Assembly (NCBI RefSeq): GCF_003671765.1
Contig: NZ_QPIB01000042.1
Coordinates: 62,001 to 126,000, forward strand
Source of the DNA: Xenophilus sp. E41
GTDB taxonomy: Bacteria; Pseudomonadota; Gammaproteobacteria; Burkholderiales; Burkholderiaceae_C
Direction: 5' to 3'
Length of the DNA stretch: 64,000 nucleotides
The position numbers and the translations under genes were made by a program. Position 1 is the first letter of the stretch. The number at the start of each line of letters is the position of its first letter. A model generated the notes under the pieces. That model made no database searches, was not told where the DNA came from, and worked only from the letters and a program-made list of their open reading frames with translations. Shown piece by piece: positions 3,185-37,486 of the stretch.

Positions 3185-3808
3185 TTATCGCGAGTACAGC
3201 TCGACGATCAGCGATTCGTTGATGTCCGCGCCGAACTCGTCGCGGTCCGGCACCTTCTTGAAGGTGCCTTCGGCCTTGTCGATGTTGACCTCGACCCAGG
3301 CGGGGATGCCGACTTGCTGCGCCAGTTGCAGCGCTTCGACGATGCGGTTCTGCTTCTTCGACTTGTCGCGCACGGCCACCACGTCGCCGGTCTTGACCAT
3401 GTACGAGGGGATGTTCACCGACTGGCCGTTCACCGTGATCGCCTTGTGCGACACCAGCTGACGCGCTTCGGCACGGGTCGAGCCGAAGCCCATGCGGTAG
3501 ACGACGTTGTCCAGGCGCGATTCGAGGATGAACAGCAGGTTGGCGCCGGTGTTGCCGCGGCGGCGGTCGGCTTCCTCGAAGTAGCGGCGGAACTGCTTCT
3601 CGAGCACGCCGTACATGCGCTTGACCTTCTGCTTCTCGCGCAGCTGCAGGCCGAAATCGGAGGTGCGCTGGCCCGAAGTGCGGCCGTGCTGGCCGGGCTT
3701 CGAGTCGAACTTGGCCTTGTCCGCGATCGAGCGGCGGGCGCTCTTCAGGAACAGGTCGGTGCCTTCACGGCGGGAAAGTTTGGCCTTGGGGCCGAGGTAA
3801 CGTGCCAC
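3185..3808 (-). CDS. rpsD: 30S ribosomal protein S4
   Basis: This is a 207-residue S4. The N-terminal region lacks the cysteine cluster of zinc-binding S4 forms, and the S4 RNA-binding fold follows ([20 protein letters not shown] region). S4 is a primary 16S rRNA binder that starts assembly of the 5' domain. In enterobacteria it also represses its own alpha operon by binding the mRNA. Unusually for a tightly packed operon, both flanking spacers (131 nt to rpsK, 126 nt to rpoA) are long and carry strong hairpins. Confidence 0.98.
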
Positions 3809-3883
3809 GGTGTTTTCCTTGGTGTCATCTGCCGCAGTCGCCTGCGGGAGCCATCAGTCGTTCGGTCGATGGCGGTGGGCTTG

Positions 3884-3924
3884 GATAAAAGCAAAATGCG
3901 CAGCCGCCCGGAGGCGGACTGCGC
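3884..3924 (-). terminator. Terminator/attenuator-like hairpin between rpsK and rpsD
   Basis: Read on the minus strand, GCGCAG-T-CCGCC pairs with GGCGG-CTGCGC around a 4-nt loop (stem at 3898-3924: 11 bp with one bulged T). It is followed by ATTTTGCTTTTATC. This is the layout of a rho-independent terminator, 15 nt after the rpsK stop and about 75 nt before the rpsD start. In an operon that normally continues through S4, RNA polymerase alpha and L17, it more likely attenuates than ends transcription, or rpsD has its own promoter in the same gap. Confidence 0.6.
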
Positions 3925-3939
3925 CAGTCGCCGACGCCT

Positions 3940-4344
3940 TTAGATGCGGCGGCGCTTCTGCGGACGGCAGCCGTTGTGCGGCACGGGCGTCACGTCGGAG
4001 ATCGACGTGATGCGGATGCCCAGCGCGGCCAGCGCGCGCACCGACGACTCGCGACCCGGGCCGGGGCCCTTGATCTCGACGTCGAGGTTCTTGATGCCTT
4101 GTTCCACCGCGGCACGGCCGGCGACTTCCGACGCCACCTGGGCGGCGAAGGGGGTCGACTTGCGCGAGCCCTTGAAGCCCTGGCCGCCCGACGACGCCCA
4201 CGACAGGGCGTTGCCCTGGCGGTCGGTGATCGTGATGATGGTGTTATTGAACGAGGCGTGCACGTGCGCGATGCCGTCCGCAACGTTCTTGCGGACCTTC
4301 TTGCGAACGCGTTGTGCAGCGTTGTTGGCAGGAGCTTTGGCCAT
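3940..4344 (-). CDS. rpsK: 30S ribosomal protein S11
   Basis: This 134-residue protein carries the S11 signature ([19 protein letters not shown]-terminal [17 protein letters not shown]). It lies in the platform of the 30S subunit near the E-site mRNA. It starts 12 nt after rpsM ends, and the gene that follows (rpsD) is separated by a hairpin with a U-tract. Confidence 0.98.
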
Positions 4345-4356
4345 GCGGTTCTCTCT

Positions 4357-4722
4357 TTACTTCTTCAGGGCCTGAGCGGCCTTGCGCGGACCCTTGCGGG
4401 TGCGGGCGTTGGTGCGCGTGCGCTGGCCGCGCATCGGCAGGCCGCGGCGATGACGGAAGCCGCGGTAGCAGCCGATGTCCATCAGGCGCTTGATGTTCAT
4501 CGTCGTCTCGCGACGCAGGTCGCCTTCGATCGTGAACTGCGCGATCTGGTCGCGGATCTTCTCGAGGTCGGCGTCGGTCAGGTCCTTGACCTTCTTCGCG
4601 TAGTCGATGCCGCAGGCTTCGCAGATCTTGCGAGCGCGGGTGCGGCCGATGCCAAAGATCGCCGTCAGGCCGATCTCGGCGTGCTTGTGCGGCGGAATGT
4701 TGATGCCAGCGATACGTGCCAT
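4357..4722 (-). CDS. rpsM: 30S ribosomal protein S13
   Basis: This 121-residue S13 opens with [18 protein letters not shown] and ends in the basic [13 protein letters not shown] tail. It sits in the 30S head, forms intersubunit bridges with L5, and its tail contacts P-site tRNA. It follows rpmJ closely (22 nt) as in the standard alpha operon. Confidence 0.98.
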
Positions 4723-20715: not shown

Positions 20716-20771
20716 CTGCTATCGAATTCATAGCTGTACGCGCCCGACCGGCGGGCGCTGCGGGCCGATTC
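20716..20771 (+). repeat. Interspersed ~55-bp repeat, family A, copy 1
   Basis: An AT-rich palindrome, GCTATCGAATTCATAGC (20718-20734), is followed by a GC-rich imperfect hairpin (GCGCCCGACCGGCGGGCGC) and then GCGGGCCGATT. The same modular layout recurs at 28742, 35576, 43818, 47511 and 54496. This copy fills the space between the convergent lysE-like and recG genes. Confidence 0.8.
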
Positions 20772-35298: not shown

Positions 35299-35327
35299 TT
35301 GGCGATCCGCAACGGCCTTCCTACAAT
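35299..35327 (+). promoter_or_regulatory. Sigma-70 promoter of the glycine riboswitch-dadA transcript
   Basis: TTGGCG (35299-35304) and TACAAT (35322-35327) are separated by exactly 17 nt. Transcription would start around 35334, right at the 5' edge of the riboswitch. Confidence 0.7.
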
Positions 35328-35337
35328 CGCGGCCTTG

Positions 35338-35553
35338 CAGGAGAACGGGCGACGCCACCGGCGGCGCCCTACCGAAGGCGCAAACTCCCATAAACGCTCA
35401 GGTCTGCCCGGCGCACGCGATGCACGGGCCCGTACTGCAAGCCATCGTCAGAGCCGTCTGGAGAGCCACCGCGCACTGCGGTGCACCGAAGGAGCAAGCC
35501 CGCTGCGGGTGCAGCGGGTGAATCTCTCAGGTACCGAGGACAGGGGGAGCGGC
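35338..35553 (+). ncRNA. Tandem glycine riboswitch (gcvT type)
   Basis: Two glycine aptamers lie in series. Aptamer 1 opens GGAGAACGGGC and has CCGAAGG (35372-35378) and CGCTCAGG (35395-35402). Aptamer 2 opens CTGGAGAG (35458-35465) and has CCGAAGG (35486-35492), GGGTGAATCTCTCAGG (ending 35531) and the closing GGACAGGGG. These are the conserved cores of the gcvT element. The tandem arrangement usually marks a glycine-activated switch. It lies in the leader of dadA, so a glycine-responsive oxidase or dehydrogenase is indicated. Confidence 0.93.
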
Positions 35554-35575
35554 AACTTGAACCGTCGGTTCGGGT

Positions 35576-35624
35576 TGCTATCTTTTCCATAGCTGCTCCC
35601 GCCCGCCGTTCAAGCGCTGCAACC
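35576..35624 (+). repeat. Interspersed repeat, family A, copy 3, between riboswitch and dadA
   Basis: GCTATCTTTTCCATAGC is followed by a degenerate GC-rich half (CCCGCCCGCCGTTCAAGCGC) and GCAACC. It occupies the region where the riboswitch expression platform should be. GGTTGC (35573-35578) before the palindrome can pair with GCAACC (35619-35624) after it. Confidence 0.65.
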
Positions 35625-35640
35625 TCAAAAGGTTCTTCAA

Positions 35641-36948
35641 ATGCGCGTGATCGTCCTTGGCGCCGGCCTGCTCGGCACCACCTCCGCCTTCTTCCTTTCC
35701 CAGCTCGGCCACGACGTGACCGTGGTCGACCGCCAGGCCACGCCGGGCGCCGAGACCAGCTTCGCCAACGGCGGGCAGATCTCGGTGAGCCATGCCGAGC
35801 CCTGGGCCAACCCGAGCGCGCCGCTGAAGGTGCTGCAGTGGCTGGGCAAGGAGGACGCGCCCCTGCTCTTTCGCCTGCGGCCCGACCTGCGCCAGTGGCT
35901 GTGGGGCCTGCAATTCCTGCGCGAATGCACGCCGGCGCGCACGCGCCACAACATCGAGCAGATCGTGCGCCTGGGCACCTACAGCCGCGACACGCTGCAG
36001 CAACTGCGCCGCGACACCGGCATCGACTACGACCAGCGCACGCAGGGCATCCTGCACTTCTACACGACGCAGAAGGAGTTCGACGCCGCACTCGCGCCCG
36101 CCGAGCAGATGCGCCAGCTCGGCTGCGAGCGGCGCGTGATCTCGGCCGATGAAGCCGTGGCGCTGGAGCCCGCCCTCGCGCACATCCGCCCGCAACTCGC
36201 CGGTGCGACCTACACCGCGGAAGACGAATCAGGCGACGCCAACCGCTTCACGCGCGAGTTGGCGAAGCGCGCCGAGGCCGCGGGCGTGCAGTTCCGGATG
36301 GGCCACACCATCACCGCGCTGCGCGAGGTAGGCGGCCGCATCGACCACGTGGAGGTGACCGACACCGAGGGCCGCTTCCAGCGTCTGTCGGCCGACGCCT
36401 TCGTGCTGGCGATGGGGTCGTTCAGCCCCATGCTCGCTGCGCCGCTGGGCGTGCGGCTGCCGATCTACCCGGCCAAGGGCTACTCGGTGACGATGCCGGT
36501 GAAGGACGCGTCGAAGGCGCACCAGGTCTCGCTGACCGACGACGAGTTCAAGCTGGTGTTCTCGCGCCTCACCGGGCCGAACGGTGACCGGCTTCGCATC
36601 GCAGGCACGGCCGAGCTCAACGGTTACGACCGCGACCTGAACGCAGTGCGTTGCGAGGCGATCGTGCGTCGCGTGGAGCAGCTCTTTCCCGGCGCAGGCG
36701 ACACCACGCAGGCGCAGTTCTGGACCGGCCTGCGTCCGGCGACGCCGAGCAACGTGCCGATCATCGGCCGCAGCAAGGTGCCGAACCTCTTCCTCAACAC
36801 GGGCCACGGCACGCTGGGCTGGACGCACGCCTGCGGTTCGGGCAAGTCGATCGCGCGCATCGTGACGGGGCTGGCACCGGAGGTGGATTTCGCGTTCCAC
36901 GGGGTGGACAAGGGGTCGTCAGGGGTCGTGCGGCCTGTGGCGGCCTGA
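35641..36948 (+). CDS. dadA: D-amino acid dehydrogenase family FAD oxidoreductase
   Basis: A 435-residue DadA-like enzyme. The FAD-binding GxGxxG (MRVIVLGAGLLG, G7-G9-G12) is followed by ETSFANGGQIS, and near the C-terminus the GLRPATPSNVPIIG and NTGHGTLGWTHACGSGK segments. DadA oxidises D-amino acids to keto acids at the membrane; relatives include glycine and sarcosine oxidases. The glycine riboswitch upstream suggests that glycine, or an amino acid metabolically tied to it, is a physiological substrate here. The Shine-Dalgarno AAAAGG (35627-35632) lies 8 nt before ATG and can be trapped in a small AACCT/AGGTT hairpin. Confidence 0.92.
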   Translation: MRVIVLGAGLLGTTSAFFLSQLGHDVTVVDRQATPGAETSFANGGQISVSHAEPWANPSAPLKVLQWLGKEDAPLLFRLRPDLRQWLWGLQFLRECTPARTRHNIEQIVRLGTYSRDTLQQLRRDTGIDYDQRTQGILHFYTTQKEFDAALAPAEQMRQLGCERRVISADEAVALEPALAHIRPQLAGATYTAEDESGDANRFTRELAKRAEAAGVQFRMGHTITALREVGGRIDHVEVTDTEGRFQRLSADAFVLAMGSFSPMLAAPLGVRLPIYPAKGYSVTMPVKDASKAHQVSLTDDEFKLVFSRLTGPNGDRLRIAGTAELNGYDRDLNAVRCEAIVRRVEQLFPGAGDTTQAQFWTGLRPATPSNVPIIGRSKVPNLFLNTGHGTLGWTHACGSGKSIARIVTGLAPEVDFAFHGVDKGSSGVVRPVAA

Positions 36949-36966: not shown

Positions 36967-37093
36967 ATTTGGCTCGAGCGGCCGGCTGGCTTGGGCTGGC
37001 GGGCGATTGCGCTTTGGCGTTTCTGGTTCTTTTGGTGCTTTGGTCCTGGGCGTTCGAGCGCTGTGGGCCTGAACCCGGCCGGCGGCGCCGGTG

Positions 37094-37207
37094 TGCGTTC
37101 TCCGGCTCAGGCTCGCGCTGACTGTCGTGCGGCACGACGGATGTGCTCGCCTGGAATCGACGCGCTTTCGGCACTGCACGGCGCCGCGAATGGCGCCTGC
37201 GCCCGCA
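37094..37207 (+). repeat. Left arm of a 114-bp imperfect inverted repeat
   Basis: This arm matches the reverse complement of 37373-37486 without gaps. The outer 29 bases (TGCGTTCTCCGG... to 37122) and the inner block (CGGCACTGCACGGCGCCGCG... to 37207) are nearly identical; the middle is diverged, giving roughly 80 per cent identity by eye. It lies in the 686-nt space between dadA and the flavin reductase, which holds no convincing gene. Open frames on both strands are low-complexity Arg/Ala/Pro-rich. Confidence 0.8.
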
Positions 37208-37270
37208 CACCGGCACCACCGGCCTGGGCGCTCGGGTGGATCGGCCCGCATTGGGCGGGTGCGTCCGGTT

Positions 37271-37314
37271 TTGCTCCTCTCCCCGCTGGGAAGAGGCAGG
37301 GTGAGGGGCACCCC
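37271..37314 (+). repeat. CTCTCCCC/GGTGAGGGG-type palindromic repeat in the loop
   Basis: The stretch CCTCTCCCCGCTGGGAAGAGG followed by CAGGGTGAGGGGCACC resembles a common short repeat of high-GC proteobacteria (CCCTCTCCC...GGGAGAGGG...GGGTGAGGG). It lies between the arms of the 114-bp inverted repeat. Only one copy was seen in this window. Confidence 0.6.
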
Positions 37315-37372
37315 GGCGTTGGATCAGGCACGCCCTCTCAGTCGCTGCAGTTCAGGGCGCTGGTCGTGGGCC

Positions 37373-37486
37373 TGCGGGCGCAGGGGCCATTCGCGGCGCC
37401 GTGCAGTGCCGCAAGCACGTCGATGGACAGCGAGCACACAGCACGCACGACAAGCCGGTCAGCGCGAGCCTGAGCCGGAGAACGCA
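37373..37486 (-). repeat. Right arm of the 114-bp imperfect inverted repeat
   Basis: Partner of 37094-37207, with a 165-nt loop between them. Transcribed as one RNA the two arms would form a long interrupted duplex. Both arms translate, in one frame each, into similar Arg-rich peptides (QCRK.VD and VSASLSRRT appear in both), which may only reflect shared DNA. Confidence 0.8.

Follow-up and report, generated by a model that had tools for sequence, protein, structure and literature searches.

The window, a stretch of 64,000 nucleotides of contig NZ_QPIB01000042.1 of Xenophilus sp. E41, carries on its forward strand a promoter, a tandem glycine riboswitch and a gene for a DadA-type flavoenzyme, with the following features:

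35299 to 35327, + strand: sigma-70-type promoter, TTGGCG-N17-TACAAT (consensus scan, 9 of 12 matches)
35334 to 35441, + strand: glycine aptamer 1 (RF00504, 31.0 bits at 35328-35416; P1 closing pair from the fold)
35448 to 35553, + strand: glycine aptamer 2 (RF00504, 54.1 bits, above the gathering score of 32)
35551 to 35579, + strand: hairpin I, terminator-like, followed by ATCTTTTCCA (terminator-type scan; conserved pairing in 26 leaders)
35556 to 35614, + strand: helix II, 35556-35562 with 35608-35614 (covariation and RNAalifold consensus)
35627 to 35632, + strand: Shine-Dalgarno-like AAAAGG (sequence; directly 3′ of the extended helix II)
35641 to 36948, + strand: DadA-type FAD-dependent amino-acid dehydrogenase, a probable glycine dehydrogenase, 435 amino acids (ORF, profiles and tree)

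The RF00504 covariance model places the riboswitch at 35334-35553 (+), 5′ of the DadA-type gene, and the element has the tandem aptamers, the short linker and the one following gene (start at 35641) of this class. This confirms what the first-pass annotation had read from the letters, namely a tandem glycine riboswitch in front of such a gene, and the good promoter that it had placed directly upstream was recovered as well: the scan found one site against a shuffled mean of 0.0, and the −10 box keeps its T, A, A and T in all 17 aligned leaders. Of the limits given there (35338 to 36948), the end is correct and the start lies a few bases late. The gene plausibly forms a unit by itself, as the next + strand ORF of some size that does not overlap it begins near 37000-37400. 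Clustering of neighbours gave no clear conserved same-strand partner gene, a weak negative given the messy ORF calling in this high-G+C DNA.

Aptamer 2 faces the gene and scores well above the RF00504 cut-off. Its P1 strands are GCCGTCTG and CAGGGGGAGCGGC, and GCCGnCTG is unchanged in 57 of the 61 leader variants listed, the exceptions being L053, L054, L055 and L057. Aptamer 1 reaches 31.0 bits (E = 0.0002 in a 451-base search); its Rfam alignment ends early and stays 1 bit below the gathering score owing to an additional hairpin within J3b/1, at about 35406-35430. Its P1 (CTTGCAG/CTGCAAG, 35334-35340 with 35435-35441) is present in the unconstrained minimum-energy fold. Further, the core of aptamer 1 has GUAC (about 35431-35435, in J3b/1) in place of the usual GGAC, so that the earlier description of both aptamer cores as intact holds for aptamer 2 and was slightly overstated for aptamer 1. 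Among 95 distinct dadA-linked leaders this word is GUAC in 80, GGAC in 8 and GAAC in 3, and the pattern is absent in 4, whereas 29 of 30 gcv-linked leaders have GGAC and the remaining one GAAC. According to the available part of a review, glycine-riboswitch variants with altered cores reject glycine (PMC9481103), and the GUAC aptamer 1 could belong among such variants. The dadA leader shares the tandem aptamer class with the RF00504 riboswitches known in front of gcvT or gcvTHP, and one of the latter, also tandem, precedes gcvTHP in the own genome. Compared with these gcv riboswitches, the dadA leader has a flavoenzyme gene as its target and P1 strands of almost invariant ("frozen") sequence; its aptamer 1 is mostly GUAC, some leaders have the extra J3b/1 stretch, and the expression platform is another one. 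The DadA-type gene is a new target of a known riboswitch class, the RNA itself being of a familiar kind.

Downstream of the aptamers, two structures compete for the same sequence. The terminator-type scan that gave hairpin I found 1 against 0.5 expected, which is weak taken alone; across 26 leaders, 96.2% of its cells are paired, with 4 compensatory cells, all in one pair. Helix II links bases just 3′ of the P1 3′ strand to bases just 5′ of the Shine-Dalgarno sequence, and in 26 related leaders 96.2% of its cells are likewise paired, with a covariation of 0.200 vs. 0.153 in shuffles (reached in 0 of 500) and a score above that of its slid versions. The RNAalifold consensus lengthens helix II by 35549-35553 with 35616-35620 and by 35543-35546 with 35623-35626, thereby occupying the P1 3′ strand; a search for compensatory changes in the 35549-35553 arm of this extension found none. 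The sequences of the helix II arms differ widely between lineages, and in 52 distinct long-type leaders cognate arms pair at a mean of −16.9 kcal/mol vs. −11.9 kcal/mol for swapped arms, with 25 of the 52 beating 90% of swaps, the window's own leader not among them (0.275). For 23 short-type leaders the corresponding values are −13.1 and −9.9 kcal/mol, and 8 beat 90% of swaps. Since hairpin I and helix II use the same 5′ arm, they are mutually exclusive.

Two further approaches to the switch were discarded. A Shine-Dalgarno hairpin, AACCT/AGGTT, has 69.4% of its cells paired and a covariation not above shuffles, and it was rejected as the switch. Duplex z-scores between the P1 3′ strand and the Shine-Dalgarno sequence (means of 0.15 for gcv, n = 30; −1.26 for short dadA, n = 32; −0.76 for long dadA, n = 67; −0.73 for DadA6, n = 8) were dropped, as they do not discriminate because the P1 3′ strand is G-rich. 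The leader also contains the palindrome GCTAT-N7-ATAGC, found twice in the window (35577-35593, + strand, and 20718-20734, − strand) with 0 expected. The same word occurs 32 times in 822 kb of named loci, vs. 1 for a control word; 24 of the 32 are in dadA leaders and 8 elsewhere. It may be a small repeat that entered the expression platform.

For the direction of the switch, we infer that glycine turns the gene on, because of the expected role of the gene and because of precedent (PMC6944388 and PMC2258182, in their available parts). In this mechanism, one of two structures would form without glycine: the long helix II beside the Shine-Dalgarno sequence, with the P1 3′ strand taken into it, or hairpin I, which is terminator-like. 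With glycine bound, the P1 3′ strand would be kept in the aptamer and the gene released. The folding of bound and free states, under partial constraints, did not favour this direction, which is the one implied by the earlier proposal that the enzyme serves when glycine is in excess. Among the 63 long leaders, the bound state made the Shine-Dalgarno sequence less accessible in 22 and more accessible in 10; among the 28 short ones, the counts were 13 and 6.

The opposite direction, in which glycine-bound P1 permits hairpin I to terminate and a glycine-free helix II keeps the Shine-Dalgarno sequence open, is doubtful. It would agree with the consensus helix II, which stops directly before AAAAGG and leaves it uncovered, with the terminator-like and conserved nature of hairpin I, and with the lean of the crude folding just described. 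However, the same folding puts the gcv leaders, for which ON is expected, on the OFF side as well (6 of 13 less open when bound, 1 more open), the same trend as in the dadA leaders, so that the folding failed its control and does not inform on the direction. Further, two or three bases of hairpin I also belong to GCGGC, with which the P1 3′ strand ends, and therefore a stable P1 should weaken this hairpin; and in the available text of PMC6944388 glycine is expected to raise the expression of glycine-degrading genes.

The product of the gene was recognized as a D-amino-acid dehydrogenase-like flavoenzyme from the beginning, and profile searches agree: it matches Pfam DAO with 248.6 bits and the DadA subfamily PRK00711 with 502 bits, above the cut-off of 383, whereas PRK12409 is matched with 347 bits, below its equivalog cut-off of 494. 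The own genome holds a second, canonical DadA (62.8% identity to E. coli DadA; PRK00711, 685 bits), at which a riboswitch is absent, and the window enzyme is therefore a paralog separate from it. E. coli DadA (dadAX) belongs to the same family, with 39% identity to the window enzyme and the conserved residues in common, yet it lies in another subclade, its upstream region is without the riboswitch core words, and its gene adjoins the alanine racemase gene dadX. In an 89-row tree, E. coli DadA clusters with the own paralog (L191) and with L203, L204 and L210, whereas the window protein sits in a separate clade. Most riboswitch-bearing rows belong to one of two lineages, namely the window clade together with deeper kin, or a second, tight clade (100/100), in which 10 of 10 rows are riboswitch-linked; one riboswitch-bearing row (L034) has a very long branch and no placement. 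The riboswitch label changes 6 times on the tree vs. 26.9 times in shuffles, a contrast inflated by near-copies. Profiles and tree place the window enzyme in the DadA family, though not as the ortholog of DadA.

Residues were compared between 49 proteins of the window clade (4 of them without a riboswitch), 10 of the second, DadA6-containing clade and 14 canonical DadAs. The first two groups have 24 positions in common that are unlike the consensus of the canonical proteins, including 44, 50, 52, 72, 137, 139, 141, 192 and the block 296-308; at five of the 24 (52, 131, 266, 315 and 323) the shared residue also occurs in some of the canonical sequences. Residues 44-52 map to an N-terminal conserved stretch in the HMMER alignment to the glycine oxidase 4ysh, and this stretch adjoins what we take to be the flavin-binding motif. 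Ten riboswitch-free relatives carry most of the 24 residues too, so that these residues may be ancestral, and they seem to mark a subfamily and not riboswitch linkage per se.

It is conceivable, though unlikely, that the window enzyme is a broad D-amino-acid dehydrogenase (for D-alanine and others) merely induced by glycine, for example against the peptidoglycan damage that results when glycine replaces alanine. Both the PRK00711 score and the presence of the residues conserved in all three compared groups are consistent with such a role. However, the genome already has a true DadA free of a riboswitch, the 24 residues set the riboswitch-linked groups apart from the canonical consensus, and a racemase like E. 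coli DadX was found in 0 of 80 named dadA loci, this last absence being a weak argument because a DadX-like racemase was found in only 3 of the 13 canonical loci searched.

The pairing of riboswitch and gene is conserved, as a survey of riboswitch-dadA pairs, the check proposed in the first-pass annotation, has established. In 76 of 80 loci, the best 80 of 582 relatives and therefore a sample of close kin (81-98% identical), the core words of both aptamers lie within 450 bases upstream of the gene, by a test cruder than the covariance model. The closest DadA matches among these are from two MAGs (98 and 97%), followed by Xenophilus aerolatus (96%). Among 60 genomes, own included, the riboswitch is directly upstream of 19 of 19 DadA matches of at least 79% identity, and of 4 of 5 at 63-68% (G044 being unlinked); among the matches listed at 62% or less (E to 1e-60), all are unlinked except three paralogs at 39-40% (G031:C2, G032:C38 and G012:C260). 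A larger sample, 200 genomes of the order screened under stricter filters, gave among the matches listed at 76% or more 5 linked genes (G000, G160, G033, G232 and G168) and 2 unlinked ones (G214, and G204 with its gene in two pieces), with 3 left unjudged (G087 and G166 at contig edges; G209, place unlisted). At 63-68%, again among the matches listed, 9 are linked (G038, G081, G172, G052, G095, G047, G139, G179 and G125) and 7 unlinked (G132, G137, G176, G213, G044, G136 and G064). Riboswitch linkage is thus patchy at 63-68% identity. The relatives obtained from a plasmid collection (331 records) are all below 60% identity.

A search of the flanks of the four core-word-negative loci among the 80 (L116, L126, L134 and L135) gave no RF00504 match above the gathering score. 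A TIGR01891 amidohydrolase gene directly adjoins dadA in L126; L116 and L134 have such a gene upstream as well, separated from dadA by a LysR-like gene on the opposite strand. A LysR-like gene is also seen in L135, together with one for a Bug-type binding protein; the LysR and Bug assignments are sequence readings. At the three loci with the amidohydrolase gene it looks as if glycine or a D-amino acid were released from an amide, and an amide of glycine would fit a glycine-oxidizing enzyme.

Across the 60 genomes, 69 glycine-riboswitch sites were found: 41 before gcv genes (gcvT or gcvH/P), 23 before window-type dadA, 2 before a DadA6-type gene, 2 before a dadA paralog (one of them decayed) and 1 before a LivK-like gene. 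The last is a two-match riboswitch (L005:1501-1762, G020) before an ABC-type binding-protein gene, LivK-like by sequence reading. The decayed site (L036:515-937) consists of a lone glycine aptamer and a DadA-like gene fragment upstream of an intact riboswitch-dadA pair, and is apparently a decayed copy of a paralog module.

DadA6 of Cupriavidus necator was reportedly introduced by Claassens et al. in 2020 (Metab. Eng.). In the available part of a 2025 paper, C. necator dadA6 is named a glycine oxidase and was deleted, the deletion giving the engineered strain no better growth rate or yield (PMC11879842); according to PMC12421819, as far as its text was available, the glycine oxidase native to C. 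necator makes a contribution in the engineered organism. Sites for the published dadA6-rev primer, each with 1-2 mismatches, are present in 27 of 60 genomes of a single genus, taken to be Cupriavidus, and in 6 of the 10 loci listed a DadA-type gene lies about 1.2 kb past the site. All 6 of these loci, when scanned, have RF00504 matches above the cut-off between primer and gene (a pair of aptamers at five loci, a single one at L181), and 8 of 8 longer loci contain a DadA6-type gene whose product is 38-40% identical to the window enzyme. The second primer (dadA6-for) was not found in stretches of up to 6 kb of 8 relatives, and its matches elsewhere, 4 scattered ones with 2 mismatches in 399 genomes and a sole exact one (G627) in an unrelated gene, were discarded; orthology with DadA6 is therefore probable, not proven. 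Thus, the second riboswitch-linked DadA lineage, which resembles the window enzyme in being DadA-type, probably contains the ortholog of C. necator DadA6 (PMC11879842). It differs from the window enzyme in profile, as the probable ortholog L184 belongs to PRK12409 (752 bits) and is below the PRK00711 cut-off. The same genus also has an ortholog of the window enzyme itself, at 64-66% identity, in 5 of 200 genomes of the family, each with an RF00504 match upstream.

Taken together, we consider it fairly probable, judging from sequence comparisons, that the riboswitch turns on a DadA-family glycine dehydrogenase, respiratory and yielding glyoxylate and ammonia, as an overflow beside glycine cleavage. 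A glycine riboswitch before a "D-amino-acid dehydrogenase" in most close relatives examined suggests that the enzyme burns surplus glycine. Glycine would be its main substrate, oxidized to glyoxylate and ammonia, and the electrons would pass into the respiratory chain as the presumed acceptor, so that the enzyme would take up the overflow next to the glycine cleavage operon, which is under a riboswitch of its own. The own genome has two sinks for glyoxylate, a glyoxylate carboligase (1157 bits) and malate synthase G (1198 bits). Of the two substrates first proposed, glycine is the better supported, in view of the conserved linkage, the separate DadA, the DadA6 lineage and the glyoxylate sinks, the less likely one being a D-amino acid linked to glycine.

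It is rather improbable that the enzyme is instead a dehydrogenase of a glycine derivative such as sarcosine, with glycine as product or signal. Sarcosine oxidase beta subunits and dimethylglycine oxidase are among the weak PDB matches, and the amidohydrolase genes near dadA in three riboswitch-free relatives could be read in this way; yet the soxB family is matched with 59.9 bits vs. a cut-off of 529, and control by a product would be unusual. Finally, the thiamine-pathway glycine oxidase ThiO, to which a profile match of 127.5 bits and glycine oxidases as the best PDB sequence matches might point, is a highly improbable identity and was rejected, since the enzyme is below the TIGR02352 equivalog cut-off of 250.8, a better ThiO-like candidate is encoded at C22:789723 (232.7 bits, just below the cut-off, vs. 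99.9 for the window gene in the same search), and the leader fits a glycine riboswitch, a TPP riboswitch being absent from the window at gathering scores.

We found no published report of a glycine riboswitch on a DadA-type gene. A DadA target is absent from the available parts of PMC3766115, PMC6944388, PMC2258182, PMC12452182, PMC2211319, PMC2704228, PMC12421819, PMC11879842, PMC4710047, PMC12827605, PMC12593503, PMC9481103, PMC12060979 and PMC12452685; the first of these, a 2013 regulon paper, places the target genes of glycine metabolism in its supplement, which may list it. Text matches to "dadA" in the glycine-riboswitch literature, as far as available, were set aside, as they refer to Dickeya dadantii or Dadabacteria. 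Besides C. necator DadA6, the closest analogy is the glcB (malate synthase) riboswitch of SAR11, which likewise has a non-gcv target that fits a glycine-to-glyoxylate route (available parts of PMC2211319 and PMC2704228), with the difference that a glyoxylate consumer is controlled there and a putative glyoxylate producer here.

If the glycine dehydrogenase reading is true, many Burkholderiales proteins annotated as D-amino acid dehydrogenases would be misnamed, the riboswitch naming their substrate, and these bacteria would have a second, folate-independent route for glycine. It would also account for the way in which glycine can supply pools of glyoxylate in relatives of C. necator, a host used in biotechnology, and the glycine regulon would gain a gene class.

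In 9 of the 80 named loci (L066, L071, L073, L079, L084, L091, L099, L115 and L132), a second DadA-like gene with 38-44% identity lies directly before dadA (ORF at about 3400-4690), with its own glycine-riboswitch core words 5′ of it. The upstream paralog has an open frame of 409-417 amino acids and is without signature residues such as R365, H389 and W361. Its median dN/dS is 0.38, vs. 0.14 for dadA of the same genomes, and it appears to be a selected pseudoenzyme.

More speculatively, these elements may be joined in one scenario, which we regard as tentative and, taken as a whole, not likely. Comamonadaceae and their kin would run a two-step programme, in which gcvTHP recovers one-carbon units and the GUAC/frozen-P1 switch opens the overflow through the respiratory glycine dehydrogenase. 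Aptamer 1 would perhaps respond at a different threshold, or even to a different ligand, and the catalytically dead, selected, riboswitch-linked paralog of Variovorax would be a partner or regulator subunit.

Elsewhere in the window, the − strand at 32651-32772 matches the Burkholderia sRNA Bcj11 (RF02835, 89.4 bits), within a same-strand ORF of 648 amino acids.
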